Of a DNA stretch of 64,000 bases, positions 1 to 43,831 are shown in pieces; the first letter of the stretch is position 1; each line of letters begins with the position of its first letter. The DNA comes from an uncultured Chloroflexota bacterium (GTDB lineage Bacteria; Chloroflexota; Dehalococcoidia; GIF9; AB-539-J10). The translations under genes were made by a program, and so were the position numbers. The notes below the pieces were generated by a model. The model saw nothing but the letters and a program-made list of their open reading frames with translations. It had not been told where the DNA came from and made no database searches. The stretch is from positions 16,161 to 80,160 of the forward strand of contig CAISEW010000037.1 in NCBI GenBank assembly GCA_903884455.1, written 5' to 3'.

Positions 1-179
1 AGTATCAATTTAACTTGTTCACAGTCAGTCCAGTCAAAGCGCAGAACAACCCCACAATCGCTTGAAAACTCTCTTGGTGTTGGAATCAGCTTGGTAGAAT
101 AGCCTGCCTCCTTCAGGAGCTTCTCGGCACGCATCACAGATGAATTTGTAAAAAAGAGGACTACACCATATCGTGTCAT
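1..179 (-). CDS. Putative Se/S carrier-like protein (DUF3343 / Se_S_carrier), partial at window edge
   Basis: Reverse complement of 1-179 translates MTRYGVVLFFTNSSVMRAEKLLKEAGYSTKLIPTPREFSSDCGVVLRFDW...; the 'LIPTPREFSSDCGVVLRF' motif is typical of DUF3343. Start overlaps the upstream gene stop (ATGA). Confidence 0.75.
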   Translation of the reverse strand, partial: MTRYGVVLFFTNSSVMRAEKLLKEAGYSTKLIPTPREFSSDCGVVLRFDWTDCEQVKLI

Positions 180-1324
180 GAATGAATAACCTGCTCTATT
201 GCCCGTATTGTTGTGCTGATATCATCCATGGTTGTGAACACACCCGGAGCCAGCCGCACTGTCCCCTCAGGAAATGAGCCCATTGTTTTGTGCGCCGCCG
301 GGGCACAGTGCAACCCCACGCGGCACAGAATACCATATTCTTCATCCAGTTTCAGGCCGACCTCTGAAACCCGCTTGTGGTGAACACTAAAGGATATGAC
401 AGCTACTGTGCTATTGGTGTCAAGTGGTCCGTACACCTTGATTTCTGGCAGTTCAGATAAACCATTTATGAGTGCTAGGGTAAGCTCTTTTAGATGGGCC
501 CGGATTGTGTCAATCCCCCTATCCTTCACCCACTGTATGCCAGCGTGGAGGCCGGCAATCCCTACGAGATTAAGCGTGCCGCTTTCAAATTTATCTGGCA
601 GGTCATCTGGTTGTTCCTCCGACTCGGAATGGCTCCCCGTGCCGCCACGCATCACTGGTTCGATCTCTGATATATCAACATTATCGCCGATGGCCAGGCC
701 ACCGATGCCAGGAGGACCTTGCAATTCCTTATGTCCGGTGAAGGCTAAGAAGTCAATTCCCATTGCCGGCATGTCTATGGGTATAGTTCCCGCGGTTTGT
801 GCACTGTCAACTAACAGCAAAGCTCCAGCTTTATGAGCGACAGAAGCAACTTCAGCAATAGGTAGTATGGTTCCCATCACGTTGCTCGCATGAGTGATGG
901 CTACAAGACGTGTGCGGGAGTTCATCACTCTGACCACGTCTCTGACGTCAAGGCTGCCATCGGCAGCACAGGGAACAATGCTCAAATGAACTCCCTGTTT
1001 TTCCAAGCTTCGCAGAGGTCGCATCACTGCGTTATGTTCTATGGAGCTGGTGACAACATGATCACCTGGTTTTAATAATCCTCTGAGAGCTACGTTAATC
1101 GCATGGGTAGCGTTGGATGTAAAGATTAACCGAAGCGGGTCGGCAACATTAAAAAAAGAGGCAATATCTTCCCTGGCATTGTATACCTCTCGCGCCGCGG
1201 CAATGGACAAACGATGTCCAGAGCGGCCAGGATTGCCCCCGGCGAGCTCCAAGACATCGGTCATAGCCTTTAGAACTTCCGGCGGTTTGGGCCAGGACGT
1301 TGCTGCGTTATCAAGGTATATCAT
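176..1324 (-). CDS. Class V aminotransferase / cysteine desulfurase family protein (TIGR01977-like, selenium-associated type)
   Basis: MIYLDNAATSWPKPPEV..., PLP-Lys region FTGHKELQGPPGIGGL, and the C-terminal VGLHCAPAAHKTMG Cys loop. Confidence 0.85.
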   Translation of the reverse strand: MIYLDNAATSWPKPPEVLKAMTDVLELAGGNPGRSGHRLSIAAAREVYNAREDIASFFNVADPLRLIFTSNATHAINVALRGLLKPGDHVVTSSIEHNAVMRPLRSLEKQGVHLSIVPCAADGSLDVRDVVRVMNSRTRLVAITHASNVMGTILPIAEVASVAHKAGALLLVDSAQTAGTIPIDMPAMGIDFLAFTGHKELQGPPGIGGLAIGDNVDISEIEPVMRGGTGSHSESEEQPDDLPDKFESGTLNLVGIAGLHAGIQWVKDRGIDTIRAHLKELTLALINGLSELPEIKVYGPLDTNSTVAVISFSVHHKRVSEVGLKLDEEYGILCRVGLHCAPAAHKTMGSFPEGTVRLAPGVFTTMDDISTTIRAIEQVIHS

Positions 1325-1436
1325 TTCTTCAGTATCATTTGGCTAGCTTGTGCAACCCCTCTGAGTCAGCATTGCTGGCTGCGGGCATAACAACTCGCCA
1401 GCATCGATTATCTCAATATTGTTCATCACAAGCTCT

Positions 1437-2552
1437 CTATGCTTCTTTCTCCCGCATAACTAACCCAACAATTATACATATTACCAGACCCGTGATGACA
1501 CCAGCTGGCCCAAAGGCACCCATCGCATTATCTGTGGGACACAAGCAACTGGCTATGCTGTAGTTCTGGGCAAAACCGCCACCTACAATCATGCCAATAA
1601 CAAACATAGCTGCATCGGCATCTCCTTCACCAGAAAGAAAGAGCTGCCGAGCAGGACAACCGCCAGCCAGAGTGAGAGCGAGTCCAGCCATGACCATACC
1701 GCCAAAGTTCCACCACTCGTTGGTTTGAGCTAGTGGCTGATCTACGAAGCCAGGATGAAACTGGCCCAATGCCAGGTTAGTGATGAAAGCAGCGCCGATG
1801 AACGCCAGAAGGCCATTCAGGAGATGTGAATCCCGGAGCCATAGCATGTTACGCACCGCGGCAATTGTACAGAAGCGGCTACGCTGGGCCAAGAAACCAA
1901 TAACAAGCGCCACAACTAGAGAGATGATTATAGGGGCGTAGTGACTGGCCGGCCCCGTCGTGGAGAAAAAGATAGGGCCGGTTGGGTTGCCATCGGCATC
2001 CGTCCCAAATTGTGGCCGAGCGAGCAAAAGAACAAGCAGTGTCACCATTATGATTGGTAGCACCCAGCCTAAAGCCTTGGGCGCGGGATGGCTACGTCCA
2101 AGGCTAAACCCTCTGCGCAAGAAGACGATGCCTATTCCAATTCCAGCCACCAGACCAAGAATACCAAAAATGGCGTTCCAATCACCGCCGGCAAGCCGCA
2201 GGTAGGCGCGCCACGGACAGCCGATGAATACCAGCATGCCAAAGGCAGCAAATACGCCAAGGAGAAAACGCATCAACGGAGCCGACCCGGTGCGCGGCTT
2301 GAACTCTCGGAAAATGAGCGCAGCAATAAGAGCACCAAGTACAAAGCCGATTATCTCAGGACGGATATACTGCCCCTCGGGGTTGCCGGACAAGCCAAGC
2401 GCCCCGGCGATATCGCGGCTGAAACAGCTCACAGAAATCCCCATGTTTCCGGGATTACCGAGCTTGACGAGCACTGGGGCGAGTACTCCGGCAACGAGGC
2501 CGGTGAATATAGGACCCCAACGGGATGTAAGGAACCGTGAAACAGATGACAT
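1437..2552 (-). CDS. YedE/YeeE-family membrane transporter (selenium metabolism YedE-like)
   Basis: Polytopic protein with GCPWRAYLRLAGGDWNAIFG, RSRFCTIAAVRNMLW and GGCPARQLFLSGEGD motifs. Start moved to 2552, which has the Shine-Dalgarno AAAGGAGG. Confidence 0.8.
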   Translation of the reverse strand: MSSVSRFLTSRWGPIFTGLVAGVLAPVLVKLGNPGNMGISVSCFSRDIAGALGLSGNPEGQYIRPEIIGFVLGALIAALIFREFKPRTGSAPLMRFLLGVFAAFGMLVFIGCPWRAYLRLAGGDWNAIFGILGLVAGIGIGIVFLRRGFSLGRSHPAPKALGWVLPIIMVTLLVLLLARPQFGTDADGNPTGPIFFSTTGPASHYAPIIISLVVALVIGFLAQRSRFCTIAAVRNMLWLRDSHLLNGLLAFIGAAFITNLALGQFHPGFVDQPLAQTNEWWNFGGMVMAGLALTLAGGCPARQLFLSGEGDADAAMFVIGMIVGGGFAQNYSIASCLCPTDNAMGAFGPAGVITGLVICIIVGLVMREKEA

Positions 2553-2849
2553 AGAACCTCCTTTGTTCACTAGGTTTCCTTGTCGGACAGTTGACAATGT
2601 CTATAATAATGACACAAGCCTTGAGAAGTCGCAATACTTGTGAGTACTCGTAAAATCAGCAATAAAATGCCCCACACTTCCCGGTGGACTATGAATAGGC
2701 CATATCCTTTATGTTACTTCTTCACTAAAGTCTTATAAACTTCACTTATTAACCTAATTCTGCACCGGTAGCTATTCCATCCCAATGGACAAGGCGGTTC
2801 AAGCCCATAAAGGCGTGGAGTTAATATCTATTTTGGTAAACGAGGATGA

Positions 2850-3791
2850 CTAATCCTTGAGGGTGCAGGAAACCGAGCAATTAGTGCACTCGTTATCGCA
2901 GGGTTCAACATGGATGACAACGTCAGACTGGGGAAGACATTGTTGAATATCCTGCTCTAGGTGATCACATAGACGGTGCGCTTCTTCCACATCGGCGTTT
3001 TTAGGTACTACCAAGTGCAAGTCGATATGGCGCTGGCTACCTGCCTTGCGTGTCCGCAGGTTGTGAAAACCAACCAGTTGACCTCCGTGTTCCATAATGC
3101 AGGACCGTATTTTATCCTCCTCTGATTGCGATAATCTGATATCAAGTAATCCCCCGAACGACTTCTTGGTGATCTTGTAAGCGGCTCTCCCGATAAATAC
3201 TGCCACAAAGGTGGCAGCAATCGGGTCAAACATGGTGAACCCGGTAAACCTCACAACAAGCAAAGCAACTAGTACAGCGGACATAGTAATTACATCGGTG
3301 CTAAGGTGATAAGCATCTGCTTCAAGAGCTAGGGAATCTCGTTCAGAAGATACCTTAAATAAATAACGGGAAACTATCACATTCACCACGATAGACGCTA
3401 TCATTATGCCAATGCCGACATCGAGGAACTCCAGAGTTGTGCCGGCAATTAACCTTTTTATTGCCTCATATATGATTATCCCGGAAGCAACGAATATAAG
3501 TACTCCTTCGGCTATACCGCTAATATTCTCTGCCTTGCCGTGACCATAGGGGTGGTCTTGGTCGGCTGGTCTATCGGACACCCTGACGCTAATAAAGGCA
3601 ATAATGGCTGCGGCAAGGTCCATTATGCTATGGATAGCTTCAGCAATGAGGCTGACGCTGCCTGTCAGTATCCCAGCAACCAGCTTCAGCAAGATAAGAG
3701 TGGTATTGGAAGCAATAGAAATTTTCGCTGCCTTCTGCTTACTGGGAATATTGTCTTTAGTTTTGAGTTTCGCCATGTCCCTAATTGCCAA
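2850..3791 (-). CDS. Cation diffusion facilitator (CDF) family metal transporter
   Basis: AEAIHSIMDLAAAIIAF, DHPYGHGKAENI and the C-terminal cytoplasmic domain. Start is either TTG 3791 or ATG 3776. Confidence 0.9.
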   Translation of the reverse strand: MAIRDMAKLKTKDNIPSKQKAAKISIASNTTLILLKLVAGILTGSVSLIAEAIHSIMDLAAAIIAFISVRVSDRPADQDHPYGHGKAENISGIAEGVLIFVASGIIIYEAIKRLIAGTTLEFLDVGIGIMIASIVVNVIVSRYLFKVSSERDSLALEADAYHLSTDVITMSAVLVALLVVRFTGFTMFDPIAATFVAVFIGRAAYKITKKSFGGLLDIRLSQSEEDKIRSCIMEHGGQLVGFHNLRTRKAGSQRHIDLHLVVPKNADVEEAHRLCDHLEQDIQQCLPQSDVVIHVEPCDNECTNCSVSCTLKD

Positions 3792-3955: not shown

Positions 3956-5464
3956 TTAGAGTTTCTTGACTTCTATGGCCACAAATACAGCACCACCGAC
4001 CTTTATTTTCTTCCGCTGTCCTTCAATATGTTGTCGGACAGCTTCAGGAATCTGTAGATTAAGGTCGGAGAGATGCTTTATTCCTTTCACCTGATAAGTT
4101 AATTTATCGGTGCTACTTTCTATTGCGGCGGCGGCACCCATAGCTATAGCACGCATGTAATTTATCCCTGTGTGTATGCCTGAAGGCACAATATCGCTAT
4201 AAATAGCGCCATTGGCCACGCAGATCTCGTTGAAACCAGCGGGACCGATTAATCTCTTGCCGGCCTCTGTTTCGACGACTTTTACCTCGATAGACTTGTC
4301 TTTCCAGGCCAAAAATTCGCAGGGGGCAATCTCGTCTTTGTGTTTTCGGGCGGTTTCCTCGATTGCCTGGGCTATTTTCTGCCCCCGGGCTGTCTGAGGG
4401 CTGGCTATATAGGTAATAGATTTAGCTATCTCCTCGTCAGAATACTCCGTTACAGAAAACTGGGGATATGCTAACTTCCTCACATCGTCTATTTCATAAA
4501 TAAGCATCCCCAGTCGCTCAATGCCAAATCCTGCGTTGAACACAGGGTATTTAATTTCGAAATTCGCTAGGGCCACCGGCGAATACATTCCAATGTCCGC
4601 TATCTCGAGCCAGGTGCCTTTATGTTTAACAAAAAGCTCTTGCTCTTGCCCGGGGGCATAGTATTTGGATGTTGCTATCTTGGTCTCAAATTTTATGTCG
4701 GAAAAGCCATATTGCTGCATAATATCCTTGGTAATCGCACTTCCTGCATCCAAAGACATTTCAGGGTCCATAACTACAATGGATGCAGAGTGGTGGACTC
4801 GCAAATGCCGGGCATCTTCTCTTTGCTCGTTGCGATATCTAGGCCCCACGGAGAATAAAGCGACTGGAAAGCTGGCCTTGTCCTGTAATGCTGCCAAGGT
4901 ATGAAACCAGGTAGCCGTCATGTGACTTCTCAGAGTCTTGTTGGAGGGCACTGGCTGCAGTTCTCTTATCTCGGGGAAAACCTTATCCAGGAGCTCCGTG
5001 GCCTGGTAATCAGTGATGCCCAGTCCAGCAATGAGCTCTTCGATAAGATTGTCGGACTCGATTTCCCCCTTTTTATAATTTCTAAAAGTGGTCTGCAATT
5101 TTTCGATATCAATTTCTGGAGATATCTCTTTTATCTGGCTTATTCTTTTCTCGCTTAGCCCTATGTCAGGGCGAGGCAATTCCGCTAGATAAAAGGCCCT
5201 GTCGAGAATTACTCGAGCCTCCGGCCCATACTGCTTGACCACATCGCTGTCGGGCAGAAGTGTGAGATTCTCGACCTCGTCAAAGCCCAGGTTTAGGAGA
5301 ATCTGGCGAGATTTTTGAATTAATTCACGAACAAGATGAGGTTTGCCTTTCTTCGTCAGAGATATTTTAGTCTCGGTGGGGATAAGCTTCGCCGTAGCTA
5401 TCCAGGCATCGGTAAAATTGTTTTTTGCCTTAGACTTTATTTCCCCTGTATCGAAGGTTGCCAT
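3956..5464 (-). CDS. sepS: O-phosphoserine--tRNA(Cys) ligase (SepRS)
   Basis: 502 aa; N-terminal DTGEIKSKAKNNFTDAW, YGPEARVILDRAFYLAELPRPDIGLSEKRISQI, class II aaRS motif GPRYRNEQREDARHLRVHHSASIVV and NAGFGIERLGMLIY, collinear with archaeal SepRS. Confidence 0.9.
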   Translation of the reverse strand: MATFDTGEIKSKAKNNFTDAWIATAKLIPTETKISLTKKGKPHLVRELIQKSRQILLNLGFDEVENLTLLPDSDVVKQYGPEARVILDRAFYLAELPRPDIGLSEKRISQIKEISPEIDIEKLQTTFRNYKKGEIESDNLIEELIAGLGITDYQATELLDKVFPEIRELQPVPSNKTLRSHMTATWFHTLAALQDKASFPVALFSVGPRYRNEQREDARHLRVHHSASIVVMDPEMSLDAGSAITKDIMQQYGFSDIKFETKIATSKYYAPGQEQELFVKHKGTWLEIADIGMYSPVALANFEIKYPVFNAGFGIERLGMLIYEIDDVRKLAYPQFSVTEYSDEEIAKSITYIASPQTARGQKIAQAIEETARKHKDEIAPCEFLAWKDKSIEVKVVETEAGKRLIGPAGFNEICVANGAIYSDIVPSGIHTGINYMRAIAMGAAAAIESSTDKLTYQVKGIKHLSDLNLQIPEAVRQHIEGQRKKIKVGGAVFVAIEVKKL

Positions 5465-8709: not shown

Positions 8710-8827
8710 TCCTGGCAACGACATATTTTCCCAGAAGGTTGCCCCTTAAGTATCGTCTGCGCTGGAGAGTTTCACTTCCGTGTTCGGGATGGGAACGGGT
8801 GGTTCCACTTCGCTAAAGTCACCAAGA
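8710..8827 (-). rRNA. rrf: 5S ribosomal RNA
   Basis: Minus strand TCTTGGTGACTTTAGCGAAGTGGAACCACCCGTTCCCATCCCGAACACGGAAGTGAAACTCTCCAGCGCAGACGATACTT...GTTGCCAGGA. It contains the universal CCCGUUCCCAUCCCGAACACGGAAGUGAA core, and the ends pair. Confidence 0.93.
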
Positions 8828-26971: not shown

Positions 26972-27808
26972 TTATTTCAGAAGTTTAGCTAAAGCCTGTC
27001 GGTCGGCGGCAAACTCTGGTTGATCCAAAATGGGGCATTCTTCAAGACGACACTTGCCCTTTGCCAGCTCGATAGCGAAAGCAAGGCAAGTTCGCTTGCC
27101 GCACTTCCTGCAATTTGTCTTGGGTAAGAATTTGAGGAGCATAAACCCTGTATCCAGCTTTGATTTGCCTGGCTGCAGAATATCCTGCTGCGGCTGACTC
27201 AACTTTGATGCAATCTTATGGCATATCGCTGGCTCAGGATATGACCCTATGTCATAAAGGGTATAGCCCATAAATAGGACTGGCTCTTCCTGGTAGCAGC
27301 TCCACACCGCCTTTTCCAGCACCTTTGGGTTAAGTCCGGGTACACTGGTATCCCTTTCTCCAGGTTGGCATAGTAGGTTGATGACGCTTATGATCTGGTT
27401 TCTAAATCTTTCTATTAGCTCGAGTGGAATATTATAGAGGTGTGGGGTGGGAGCTTTTGTGCCGATAATTTGCTTCGTCTCAGTGACTCCGTTTTGCTTA
27501 AGTGCCAGGAGCGATTCGCCGGGCAAATGCCCTGCTGATTCCCTTCCACAGAGCACAATATATCTTATATTCGGGTTAGCCGCGATATTACAGACCATCT
27601 TCTCCAATCCTATGTTCTCTGTTTGAAGCATACCTGAAAGGGCGGCACCAGAGTCTACACCAGCCATTACCAGCTCATTCAATTCCGCTGGTATGGCAAA
27701 GTCAAAGGTATCTAGAGTTACACACACTGCTACCGGAGAATAATCATTGCCCCTCACATAGCGACCTTCCTCCGGAGGATAACCATCTGGTGGTTTTACT
27801 TTTAGCAC
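26972..27808 (-). CDS. MtrA-like (tetrahydromethanopterin S-methyltransferase subunit A family) protein fused to a C-terminal 4Fe-4S domain
   Basis: PPEEGRYVRGNDYSPVAVCVTL...VDSGAALSGMLQTENIGLEKMVCNIAANPNIRYIVLCGRESAGHLPGESLLALKQNGV...IIGTKAPTPHLYNIPLELIERFR (MtrA-like), then LPKTNCRKCGKRTCLAFAIELAKGKCRLEECP. Confidence 0.8.
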   Translation of the reverse strand: MLKVKPPDGYPPEEGRYVRGNDYSPVAVCVTLDTFDFAIPAELNELVMAGVDSGAALSGMLQTENIGLEKMVCNIAANPNIRYIVLCGRESAGHLPGESLLALKQNGVTETKQIIGTKAPTPHLYNIPLELIERFRNQIISVINLLCQPGERDTSVPGLNPKVLEKAVWSCYQEEPVLFMGYTLYDIGSYPEPAICHKIASKLSQPQQDILQPGKSKLDTGFMLLKFLPKTNCRKCGKRTCLAFAIELAKGKCRLEECPILDQPEFAADRQALAKLLK

Positions 27809-39084: not shown

Positions 39085-39228
39085 AGCCAAGGGATTGCCA
39101 CGCCCCGACAAGTCGGGGCTCGCAATGACAAAAACCTCAAGTGGCTAGACATTGCTTGCCAACAGGGGTATACTAGCTGGCACGTCTTCAAAGCCGCCGC
39201 TTGAGTAGCTAGAAGAGGCTGATTAAGG

Positions 39229-40002
39229 ATGGATGAAGTTATTATTTCCCGTGCTATTGTTGAAAGCTACATGAAAGACTTCATGGAGGCGATGGAGGTG
39301 GATGTCGCTGTAGCTGGGGCGGGGCCGGCTGGGCTTGTCGCTGCATACTACCTGGCGAAAGAGGGAATAAAGGTGATAGTATTTGAAAGGCAGCTTCGTG
39401 TGGGCGGTGGCATGCCTGGGGGAGGGATGATGTTTAACCGCATCGTCCTTCAGGAAAAAGGCAAGCGGATATTGGATGAGTTTGAAGTTTCGACTAAAGA
39501 ATATGAAAAGGGGTACTATGTCGCTGATTCGCTGGAAGCTATTTCGACCATCTGCTCAAGGGCTATAAAAGCCGGGGCGAAGATTTTCAATTTGATTAGC
39601 ATTGAGGATGTGATGATTCGGGAAGGTGACAGGATAACCGGGCTTGTTTTGAATTGGAGCGCTGTTTCCTGGTCGAAGCTGCATGTGGACCCTCTGACTA
39701 TAAGGTGCAAGGTGGCTGTAGATGCCACCGGGCATGACGCTGAAGTCTGCTGTATAGTGGTGAGGAAAATAGGTCCGAAGTTAAGGACGAAGACAGGGGA
39801 GGTGATAGGGGAGAAGCCCATGTGGGCTGAGAGAGGGGAAAGAGAAATATTGGAAAACACCAGGGAAGTCTATCCCGGCTTAGTGGTCGCTGGTATGACG
39901 GCGAACGCCGTTTTTGGTTCCCCGAGGATGGGAGCCATTTTTGGTGGCATGCTTTTATCCGGTAAAAAGGCTGCCCGAGTGGCTATGGAATTACTTAAAT
40001 AA
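39229..40002 (+). CDS. Thi4-family thiazole synthase (probable sulfide-dependent type)
   Basis: VDVAVAGAGPAGLVAAYYLAKEGIKVIVFERQLRVGGGMPGGGMMFN, VDATGHDAEVCCIVVRKIG, GMTANAVFGSPRMGAIFGGMLLSGKKAA. Confidence 0.88.
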   Translation: MDEVIISRAIVESYMKDFMEAMEVDVAVAGAGPAGLVAAYYLAKEGIKVIVFERQLRVGGGMPGGGMMFNRIVLQEKGKRILDEFEVSTKEYEKGYYVADSLEAISTICSRAIKAGAKIFNLISIEDVMIREGDRITGLVLNWSAVSWSKLHVDPLTIRCKVAVDATGHDAEVCCIVVRKIGPKLRTKTGEVIGEKPMWAERGEREILENTREVYPGLVVAGMTANAVFGSPRMGAIFGGMLLSGKKAARVAMELLK

Positions 40003-40015
40003 GGTTGAATTTGCT

Positions 40016-41224
40016 ATGGCAAAGACAATAGCTGAAATCAACGAGAAAATCAGAAAAGGTAAGGCTGTCGTGGTGACTGCCGAGGAAGTGATCGACATCG
40101 CTAAGGAAAAAGGCGTACGCAAAGCAGCCGAGGAAATTGATGTCGTTACCACCGGCACCTTCGGTCCAATGTGCTCCTCAGGTGCCTTTCTCAATATCGG
40201 ACACTCTAAGCCCAGGATAAAACTGGGCGGCGGCAAGGTTTACCTTAATGATATTCCGGTCTATACCGGAATAGCTGCTGTGGATATTTTCATCGGGGTA
40301 AATGCTCTTCCTGATGACGACCCCAGGAATAAGTTCTACCCGGGTGAGTTCAATTATGGTGGTGGGCATGTAATACAGGAACTGATAGCGGGTAAGGACA
40401 TAATACTTACCGCCACCGCTTATGGAACGGACTGCTACCCCAGGAAGAAGCTGGAGACCCTGATTAACATTAAGGACATAAATGAGGCGATTCTATTTGA
40501 TGTCAGAAATGCCTACCAGAACTATAATGTGGCGGTGAATCTCTCCGATAAGGTTCGCTATACCTATATGGGGGTGCTTAAACCGAATCTGGGGAATGCT
40601 AACTACTGCTCGGCGGGGCAACTCTCGCCGCTGTTGAATGACCCTTACTATAAGACCATAGGTGTCGGAACGAAGCTCTTCCTGGGCGGCGGAATAGGTT
40701 ATGTGGCCTGGCATGGTACCCAGCATAATCCCACTGCTCTCAGGGGAGACAATGGCGTGCCGCGGCGGGGGGCAGGGACACTGGCTGTGATTGGGGACTT
40801 GAAGCAAATGAAGCCGGAGTGGCTGGTCGGGACAAGCATGCTGGGTTACGGCTGCACATTAACTGTGGGCATAGGTGTCCCGATACCCATACTTTCCGAG
40901 GAAATTCTCCGCTACACTATAGTAAGCGATGCTGACATCCTGGCTCCCATCGTGGACTATTCCGAAGCTTATCCTCAAAGAGAGCCTGATATAGTAGGAG
41001 AAGTCAGCTACGCTGAGCTCAAGAGTGGCAACATAAAAGTTCAGGGGAAAGATGTGCCCACGGCTTCTTTGTCTAGCTATCCTAAAGCTGTGGAAATTGC
41101 CAATATTTTGAAAAAGTGGATAGAAAATGGTGAGTTTTTGCTTACCGAGCCCGTAGCTCCGTTGCCTGGAGTGGAGTCAGGCATAACTTCTAAGCCACTC
41201 AAAGAAAGACCGATAGTGGGGTAA
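40016..41224 (+). CDS. Homocysteine biosynthesis protein, COG1900/DUF39 family
   Basis: VVTTGTFGPMCSSGAFLNIGHSKPRIKLGGGKVYLNDIPVYTGIAAVDIFIGVN...YGTDCYPRKKLETLI...LGGGIGYVAWHGTQHNP. Confidence 0.88.
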   Translation: MAKTIAEINEKIRKGKAVVVTAEEVIDIAKEKGVRKAAEEIDVVTTGTFGPMCSSGAFLNIGHSKPRIKLGGGKVYLNDIPVYTGIAAVDIFIGVNALPDDDPRNKFYPGEFNYGGGHVIQELIAGKDIILTATAYGTDCYPRKKLETLINIKDINEAILFDVRNAYQNYNVAVNLSDKVRYTYMGVLKPNLGNANYCSAGQLSPLLNDPYYKTIGVGTKLFLGGGIGYVAWHGTQHNPTALRGDNGVPRRGAGTLAVIGDLKQMKPEWLVGTSMLGYGCTLTVGIGVPIPILSEEILRYTIVSDADILAPIVDYSEAYPQREPDIVGEVSYAELKSGNIKVQGKDVPTASLSSYPKAVEIANILKKWIENGEFLLTEPVAPLPGVESGITSKPLKERPIVG

Positions 41225-41233
41225 TCAAGAAAG

Positions 41234-41644
41234 ATGAATGTCTCCCGAAGAATAGTGCTTCACTTCCCGCCCAATATGACAGGGCAGCCGGTCGTTTGCC
41301 GCCTGGTTAAAGATTTTGGCCTCACCTTTAATATTCTGAAGGCTTCCATATCACCAGGACAAGAAGGATTGATGGTCCTGGAGCTAAGTGGTGAGCAGAA
41401 GAACTACGATAAGGGTGTCAAATACCTCACCGAGACCGGAATAGAAATCCAGTCCTTAAGCCAGGACGTTGTCCGTGACGAAACCAAGTGCACTCATTGT
41501 GGAGCTTGTATCACTATTTGCCCCACCGAGGCTTTTTCTCTGGAGCCAAGAACCAGAAAAGTGCTCTTTGACCATAATAAATGTGTTGTCTGCGGGCTAT
41601 GTGTCAAGGCTTGTCCTCCTCGGGCGATGATAGTGTATTTCTGA
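41234..41644 (+). CDS. NIL domain + 4Fe-4S ferredoxin protein
   Basis: N-terminal NIL-like domain, then CTHCGACITICPTEAFSLEP and CVVCGLCVKACPPRAM. Confidence 0.88.
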   Translation: MNVSRRIVLHFPPNMTGQPVVCRLVKDFGLTFNILKASISPGQEGLMVLELSGEQKNYDKGVKYLTETGIEIQSLSQDVVRDETKCTHCGACITICPTEAFSLEPRTRKVLFDHNKCVVCGLCVKACPPRAMIVYF

Positions 41645-41690
41645 CCCCGAGATTGCTTCGTCCCGATAAATCGGGACTCGCAATGACAAA
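41645..41690. repeat. Dispersed palindromic repeat between NIL-Fd and UPF0280 genes
   Basis: gagattgcttcgtcccgataaatcgggactcgcaatgaca. Confidence 0.8.
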
Positions 41691-41720
41691 ATGGGCGGGC
41701 TCCGTGAAGGGGATGAATCC

Positions 41721-42446
41721 ATGCATGAGCCACGTTTCTACCGCCACTGGATTAAAGACAGCGATTTGGTTTCTTTTGAGGTAGCGGTAAAGCAGACAGA
41801 CCTATACATCCGCTCCCGGCGTAATCTAAGGAATAAAGCTCTTGATTCCGTGCTAAAGCACCGTGGCTCTCTAGAGGCATATATTGAGCGTCATCCTCTT
41901 TTCCTGACCACATTGGACACTTACCAGGCTGAAGCTGAGGCCCCGGCCATCGTCAAAGAGATGGCTAGAGTATCTCAGCTAACAGGTGTTGGTCCTATGG
42001 CAGCGGTAGCTGGCGCCATTGCTGAAGCGGTAGGCAGAGATTTACTCACTTTCTCGCCTGAGGTAATTGTGGAAAATGGTGGTGATATTTTTCTGAAAAT
42101 ATCTAAGAAAAGGCTGGTGGGCATCTACGCCGGGCAATCCTCTTTTACCAAAAAAATTGCCCTGGAGATTATGCCCGGAGAAACACCACTGGGCGTATGT
42201 ACGTCTTCAGGAACCGTAGGACATTCTTTAAGCCTGGGCAGCGCTGACGCCGTTATTGTCCTTTCACCCTCGACATCTTTAGCTGATGCCGCAGCCACAG
42301 CCCTAGGCAATATAGTCAAGGACGCAGATGATATTCCTGGGGCAATTGAAAAAGCCCAGAGTATCGAGGGGCTACGTGGTGTGGTTATTATTGTGGGCGA
42401 CAAAATGGGTGTCTGGGGCAGGGTGAAAATTGTGCCCCTTGAGTAG
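41721..42446 (+). CDS. UPF0280 (COG2122, ApbE-like) family protein
   Basis: DLYIRSRRNLRNKALDSVLKHRGSLEAYIERHPLFLTTLDTYQ...VGPMAAVAGAIAEAVGRDL...EVIVENGGDIFL...GVCTSSGTVGHS. Confidence 0.88.
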   Translation: MHEPRFYRHWIKDSDLVSFEVAVKQTDLYIRSRRNLRNKALDSVLKHRGSLEAYIERHPLFLTTLDTYQAEAEAPAIVKEMARVSQLTGVGPMAAVAGAIAEAVGRDLLTFSPEVIVENGGDIFLKISKKRLVGIYAGQSSFTKKIALEIMPGETPLGVCTSSGTVGHSLSLGSADAVIVLSPSTSLADAAATALGNIVKDADDIPGAIEKAQSIEGLRGVVIIVGDKMGVWGRVKIVPLE

Positions 42447-42487
42447 TCCTTTCTTTTTTGCCCCGAGCAGTGATAAAGTTTTATGCA

Positions 42488-43432
42488 ATGAGAAAGTTGC
42501 CCAACTTCCGCGTGCAATTAGCCCCCCGGCATCCTAAGGGACTAATCCTGTCTAATCCTGTGATGATAGCCGCGGGCATAGCTGGCTATGGCATAGAGTA
42601 TGCTGAAATTGCTGATATACAAAAATTGGGTGCCATTGTCTGTAAAGGGACGACCCTTATGCCCAAAAAGGGTAATGCCCAACCACGACTGGTGGAAACC
42701 GCTGGTGGTCTGCTTAATTCGGTAGGCTTGGAAAATATCGGTGTTGACGCCCTGATTGAAGAAAAAGCGCCTGTATGGGCAGGGTGGCGGGTTCCGGTTA
42801 TAGTTAATGTTGCCGGGGAAACAATAGACGAATATGTGGCTGTGACCAGCAAGTTAGAAGGCGTGGCCGGGGTCAGCGGCATTGAGCTAAATATTAGCTG
42901 CCCCAATGTTTCCGCAGGCGGGATGGAATTTGGTGTCGATCCCAAGCTTGCCGCTCGGGTAACTTCAGCAGTTAAAGCTGCCACCACCTTACCGGTTATC
43001 GTTAAGTTGAGCCCCAATGTAACCGATATTAAGGAAATCGCTTTAGCCGTGGAAGAAGCTGGAGCTGATGCCATATCCCTGATTAACACACTGAAGGGCA
43101 TGGCAATTGACATAGACCAAAGAAAGCCTTGCCTGGGGAATATTGTAGGCGGGCTTTCTGGTCCCGCTATCAAGCCTGTGGCTCTTTATATGGTGTTCGA
43201 GACAGCCAAGGTGGTCCGTATTCCTGTGATAGGATGTGGTGGCATTGCTTGTGCTGAGGATGCCCTGGAGTTTATTATGGCTGGGGCTACGGCCATACAA
43301 ATTGGCACAGCCAGCCTGACTAGTCCTGATATCTGTCTTACTATACTGGAGGGAATAGAGCATTTTATGCTGGACAATGGGGTGGAGAATCTCACTGACC
43401 TTATTGGCATTGCCCAGCACTCAGCACGCTGA
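42488..43432 (+). CDS. pyrD: Dihydroorotate dehydrogenase, catalytic subunit
   Basis: [74 protein letters not shown]. Confidence 0.92.
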
Positions 43433-43440
43433 GTGCTGGG
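43413..43440. terminator. Bidirectional hairpin inside the overlapping 3' ends of convergent pyrD and the mutase subunit gene
   Basis: CCCAGCACTCAG-cacg-CTGAGTGCTGGG then TTATTT; perfect 12-bp stem. Confidence 0.8.
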
Positions 43441-43831
43441 TTATTTCCTTCTGGATGAAACTGATGATGTCCTCTGTGGAAATGCCCGGGCCAAAAACAG
43501 CTTTTACGCCCATTTGTTGTAAGGTGGGAATATCATCCTCGGGTATTATGCCACCAGCGATAACCAGGGCATCTTCTCTTCCTTTTTTTCTTAATCCTTC
43601 TATGATTGGTGGAAAGAGCTCTAAATGAGCTCCCGACAAGATGCTCAACCCCACAACATTTACATCCTCCTGGATAGCTGCCTCGACAATCATCTCGGGA
43701 GTTTGTCGGATACCAGTATAGATTACCTCCATGCCGGCATCCCGCAAAGCTCTAGCTACCACTTTAGCACCTCGGTCATGCCCATCTAAACCAGGCTTGG
43801 CTAGCAGAACACGAATCCTACTTTTGTTCAT
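43421..43831 (-). CDS. Methylmalonyl-CoA mutase, B12-binding small subunit
   Basis: [49 protein letters not shown]. Confidence 0.93.

Follow-up and report, generated by a model that had tools for sequence, protein, structure and literature searches.

A predicted sulfide-assimilation operon of methanogen-type enzymes with a non-Cys Thi4 in a SepRS-bearing Dehalococcoidia genome

The window, i.e., the whole stretch of 64,000 nucleotides analysed (C37:16161-80160), contains a run of genes, thi4, hcyBio, nilFd, COG2122 and pyrD, which very probably constitutes an operon fixing free sulfide, with SepRS and SepCysS serving separately for cysteine. The operon and SepRS/SepCysS appear to be the sole sulfur entries to homocysteine, thiazole and Cys-tRNA in this genome. 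The evidence comprises the identities of the genes, the conservation of the operon, the key residues and the families missing from the assembly, all of which were observed directly.

The sequence-only reading had described thi4, hcyBio, nilFd and COG2122 as four consecutive plus-strand genes, and the profile searches returned the same families at the same positions, all over their cut-offs (Table 1). Gaps of 13, 9 and 46 nt separate the four genes, and pyrD begins a further 11 nt downstream. The hcyBio reading frame opens at 39914, with ATG 40016 as the likely start, and COG2122 has an alternative internal ATG near 41721. The gene hcyBio is present in a single copy in the genome, and a search for HcyBio on plasmids found none. 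A promoter-like match and a terminator-like hairpin flank the run, although such sites are no commoner in the region than in shuffled sequences. The Rfam search gave no credible match to a riboswitch or regulatory RNA upstream of thi4. The order and content of the four genes recur in dozens of genomes, so the arrangement is not due to chance; pyrD is kept as a neighbour only within the genus. Elsewhere the window contains a lone 5S rRNA gene (8710-8826, minus strand), no tRNA genes and an arsenic-type cluster with genes of a DsbD-like protein, a bile-acid-type symporter, ArsP, thioredoxin, ArsM and ArsR. Near this cluster lies the gene of a methanogen-type, MtrA-like corrinoid protein (methyltransferase corrinoid subunit; 26972-27808, minus strand) with a C-terminal Cys-rich motif.

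Table 1. Features of the predicted operon and of the SepRS/SepCysS pair (window positions unless C37 is given).
Feature	Position	Strand	Evidence
sigma-70-like promoter match TAGACA-17-TATACT, 55 nt upstream of thi4	39146..39174	+	position only
thi4, thiazole synthase, non-Cys (His152) type, predicted sulfide-using	39229..40002	+	TIGR00292 E 8.9e-99, 330 bits vs cut-off 148
hcyBio (COG1900a, DUF39), predicted aspartate-semialdehyde sulfurtransferase subunit, no CBS	40016..41224	+	PF01837 E 2.7e-151, 504 bits vs Pfam cut-off 26.2 (profile search)
nilFd, NIL domain and two [4Fe-4S] motifs, presumed reductant and methionine-sensing subunit	41234..41644	+	PF09383 E 1.3e-17, plus Fer4
COG2122 (UPF0280), presumed sulfide/persulfide trafficking partner	41691..42446	+	NF003323 312 bits vs cut-off 271; PDB 2o34 153 bits, E 1e-43
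pyrD, dihydroorotate dehydrogenase, final gene of the run	42458..43432	+	NF005574 E 2.3e-128
terminator-like hairpin, 13 pairs, at pyrD end	43412..43441	+	position
SepRS, O-phosphoserine--tRNA ligase	3956..5464	-	TIGR00470 E 4.4e-135, 451 bits vs cut-off 381
SepCysS, ~1.3 kb left of the window, same contig	C37:13715-14854	-	524 bits vs cut-off 365

We infer all the chemistry of the pathway from characterised homologues. COG2122 would pass sulfide-derived sulfur, as a persulfide, to a conserved cysteine of HcyBio, which would load it onto L-aspartate semialdehyde to give a thioaldehyde-like intermediate. The NIL-ferredoxin would reduce this intermediate to homocysteine, bypassing homoserine, and its NIL domain is probably a methionine sensor. 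By the account given in PMC5764234 of earlier work, COG2122 has been proposed to help both DUF39 and SepCysS acquire a persulfide. Thi4, with histidine in place of the sacrificial cysteine, would be a multiple-turnover enzyme that makes the thiazole of thiamine from sulfide, glycine and NAD, and SepRS and SepCysS, encoded elsewhere on the contig, would build cysteine on tRNA-Cys. The cysK gene usual for the operon is missing here, probably as SepRS/SepCysS made it dispensable. A wider scheme has methanogen-type free-sulfide enzymes as the only entrance of sulfur into homocysteine, thiazole and cysteine, COG2122 as the shared carrier for HcyBio, SepCysS and possibly Thi4, and SepRS/SepCysS displacing an ancestral cysK, which persists at the head of the operon in relatives; taken as a whole, it is tentative and rather doubtful.

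The assembly (1.56 Mb, 63 contigs, 1.05% contamination) is estimated to be 99.5% complete, and the absences given here, obtained by family searches of this assembly for PF01053, CysK, ThiG and CysRS, are conditional on that estimate. No full-length protein of PF01053 (MetB/C/Y/Z; cystathionine synthases and lyases) was found in the genome, where the best matches were fragments of other PLP enzymes, e.g., the cysteine desulfurase encoded in the window. Because there is no PF01053 enzyme, a homoserine acyltransferase of the MetX or MetA type would be useless for homocysteine. A protein query against the genome found no CysK; the three PALP proteins present are, judging by sequence and neighbours, ThrC (beside homoserine dehydrogenase), TrpB and a second TrpB-like protein. 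A genuine ThiG was not found in the genome either, the matches being only pieces of 38-56 positions in frames of about 300-400 aa, at about 28 bits or less. Among the eight congeners with both SepRS and HcyBio, five also keep CysK and a PF01053 protein. The latter is encoded about 1.7 kb from cysK in several SepRS-bearing congeners, and it scores highest with cystathionine gamma-lyase/synthase models, below their cut-offs. This retention in five of eight congeners indicates that the exclusive sulfide route is a trait of some lineages and that the replacement has been uneven.

SepRS lies about 34 kb from the operon, physically separate and outside the cluster. SepCysS, SepRS and the operon are all located on one 145-kb contig, so a binning error does not explain why they occur together. 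The family search of the genome found no CysRS, which would make the tRNA-dependent cysteine route obligatory. CysRS is likewise absent from the two other SepRS-bearing genomes tested, whereas each of the five SepRS-less relatives in the same test has it. The genes of SepRS and SepCysS adjoin each other in most relatives, unlike in this genome, where a same-strand cassette lies between them (window 176-3791; L051:13715-20000). It encodes a CDF transporter, a homologue of the YedE-type selenium transporter, a cysteine desulfurase (TIGR01977, near selenocysteine lyase SclA) and a small membrane protein.

As was found in an alignment of 35 sequences from many phyla, Cys53 and Cys140 of HcyBio are invariant. 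They presumably correspond to the Cys54/Cys131 pair of Methanosarcina acetivorans MA1821. Cys54 is essential in the M. acetivorans enzyme, and the methanogen enzyme carries a C-terminal CBS domain (PMC12068725). The profile search found no match to a CBS domain in the HcyBio of the window; this domain is a regulatory addition in the methanogen form and does not define the catalytic activity. HcyBio was modelled confidently by AlphaFold (pLDDT 86, pTM 0.87). Comparison of the model with the PDB returned nothing at E < 0.001 and gave no hint of the mechanism, and, judging by this comparison of the model with solved structures, the fold appears to be experimentally unseen.

Thi4 has His152 at the position of the sulfur-donor cysteine, aligned with the histidine of the solved Thi4 structures 6hk1 and 4y4n, and histidine occupies this position in 23 of 26 relatives. 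Methanogen Thi4s with histidine at this position use sulfide (PMC8454699). The sequence-only reading had suggested a methanogen-like, free-sulfide supply of homocysteine, cysteine and thiazole, and had proposed a search for canonical MetY, MetB, CysK and ThiG. The search found PF01053, CysK and ThiG all absent. The homocysteine branch is supported by families over their cut-offs and the missing PF01053, and the cysteine branch by SepRS and SepCysS over their cut-offs and the missing CysRS. For thiazole, a Thi4 of predicted sulfide type (TIGR00292 over cut-off, non-Cys) and the missing ThiG point the same way. One congener (G135) possesses at L263:870-3319 a Rrf2-like regulator, cysK and a second Thi4 with a TCVDP motif, by eye of the Cys type, besides the His-type Thi4 in its operon.

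Across the class, hcyBio-nilFd-COG2122 is a common order. The arrangement cysK-thi4-hcyBio-nilFd-COG2122, an operon with cysK at its head, was found in several relatives, some in the family of the window (G047, G106) and some in other families. A cysK gene adjoining hcyBio was also found in records titled Omnitrophota, Deltaproteobacteria, Spirochaetota, Elusimicrobia, Saganbacteria, Margulisiibacteriota and others. Since this adjacency recurs across many phyla, the operon is a widespread bacterial sulfide-assimilation operon. A search for a cysK remnant upstream of thi4 in the genome found none. A 99% complete genome of the same family (G031) contains two copies of thi4-hcyBio-nilFd-COG2122 (L076, L052).

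The assignment of HcyBio to homocysteine synthesis has to be weighed against a coenzyme-M-synthase-like function (Mmp16/ComF, COG1900d) or the use of another aldehyde substrate. Such a function would agree with the shared Pfam family and with a weak match to TIGR03287, the coenzyme M synthase model, but the score of 127 bits is far under the cut-off of 364. Besides, the HcyBio protein itself has no ferredoxin domain, it is accompanied by a NIL-ferredoxin and COG2122 as the homocysteine enzyme is, its cysteine pattern is conserved as in COG1900a, and the genome offers no alternative, PF01053-type route to homocysteine, all of which makes this alternative function very unlikely. It is less improbable, but still unlikely, that Thi4 is a chance neighbour, co-transcribed and unrelated to the sulfide pathway. 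The operon often occurs without thi4 in other phyla and in parts of the class, and the distances of Thi4 track those of HcyBio less closely (r 0.41) than do the distances of COG2122 (0.95) or NIL-Fd (0.78). However, thi4 is directly upstream of hcyBio in 28 of the 34 informative copies in the family (manual count), several families besides this one, as well as a Sumerlaeota genome, have the order cysK-thi4-hcyBio, and the active site is, as predicted from its residues, of the sulfide-using type.

The sequence-only reading had also pointed to joint transfer with SepRS, and the acquisition of the operon together with SepRS/SepCysS from an archaeon would be in line with their location on one contig and with the fact that, across the family, HcyBio and SepRS proteins diverge in step (distance correlation r 0.96, n 17), but plain vertical descent predicts this correlation equally well. 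Within the genus the two genes co-occur (both in 8 genomes, SepRS only in 2, HcyBio only in 1, neither in 9; Fisher p 0.005), and among the 52 genomes of the family the respective counts are 26, 8, 7 and 11 (Fisher p 0.014); many family genomes are incomplete, so single absences in these counts are soft. Outside the genus, however, the family shows co-occurrence at the level of chance (both 18, single-gene classes 6 and 6, neither 2; p 1). The association seen in the family therefore stems from the genus and is missing outside it. In a sample of 98 genomes of the class, HcyBio was found in 32 and SepRS over its cut-off in only 3, all in the family of the window. In a 95-sequence tree built by a quick method from bacterial matches only, the HcyBio of the window clusters with other Chloroflexota. 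Since SepRS is so much rarer than HcyBio and HcyBio groups with Chloroflexota, joint transfer is unsupported; the operon is widespread without SepRS, occurs in many bacterial phyla, often with cysK, and lies 34 kb from SepRS here. Acquisition of the whole set together from an archaeon is thus very unlikely, and the operon is very probably indigenous to the anaerobic bacteria that make up this class.

The genome provides a clean case of a bacterium that seems to rely on sulfide fixation in the manner of methanogens for three of its sulfur products simultaneously. Close relatives represent intermediate states, in which the operon cysK, CysRS or PF01053 enzymes are kept. The lineage allows asking which steps came first as cysteine synthase gave way to RNA-dependent cysteine synthesis, and whether COG2122 donates sulfur to several pathways.

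The sequence-only reading had considered the combined, clustered form worth describing. The combination is not supported as new: Mukai et al. (2017; PMC5424206) had already reported methanogen-type homocysteine genes in SepRS-carrying Chloroflexi, including two genomes of this family: RBG_13_51_36, of the same genus as the window (HcyBio 91%), and CG2_30_46_9 (HcyBio 85-86%), both bearing SepRS-SepCysS. The text searched in that paper mentions neither Thi4 nor an operon, nor the absences of CysK, PF01053 and ThiG. The operonic thi4 and the joint absence of CysK, PF01053 and ThiG were not found in the open-licence literature, which is weak evidence of novelty. Most of the case is already reported in sister species, and the genome serves as a good illustration, not as a new discovery. 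Its operon is slightly enlarged, its lack of canonical enzymes is unusually thorough, and known families explain it well.

Among the characterised systems, M. acetivorans MA1821 (COG1900a), MA1822 (NIL-Fd) and MA1715 (COG2122) represent the same three families with the conserved cysteine pair. In contrast to them, the HcyBio of the window has about 402 aa and no CBS domain, the host is a bacterium, and the three homocysteine genes form one operon with thi4. Price et al. (2018) found that Desulfovibrio vulgaris depends on added methionine when DUF39, NIL-Fd or COG2122 is mutated, and that homoserine is not an intermediate (PMC5764234). Desulfovibrio vulgaris/alaskensis thus offers a bacterial system where the same three proteins are genetically required for methionine, but the Desulfovibrio genes are scattered (locus tags DvMF_1464, DvMF_0262 and DvMF_0044), unlike the operon of the window, and D. 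vulgaris has no SepCysS, unlike this genome. The same paper describes the DET0921:DET0919 cluster of Dehalococcoides, a Dehalococcoidia example of homocysteine genes lying together, with a predicted role in growth on minimal medium; its description mentions neither SepRS nor Thi4. Judging by Dehalococcoides (PMC7857596), the methionine synthase in this genome would be MesB. The non-Cys THI4 synthases (PMC8454699; PDB 4y4n, 6hk1, 7rk0) belong to the same family as the Thi4 of the window and have histidine at the cysteine position, but their published gene context consists of TRASH and cobalt/nickel genes, whereas that of the window consists of homocysteine genes.
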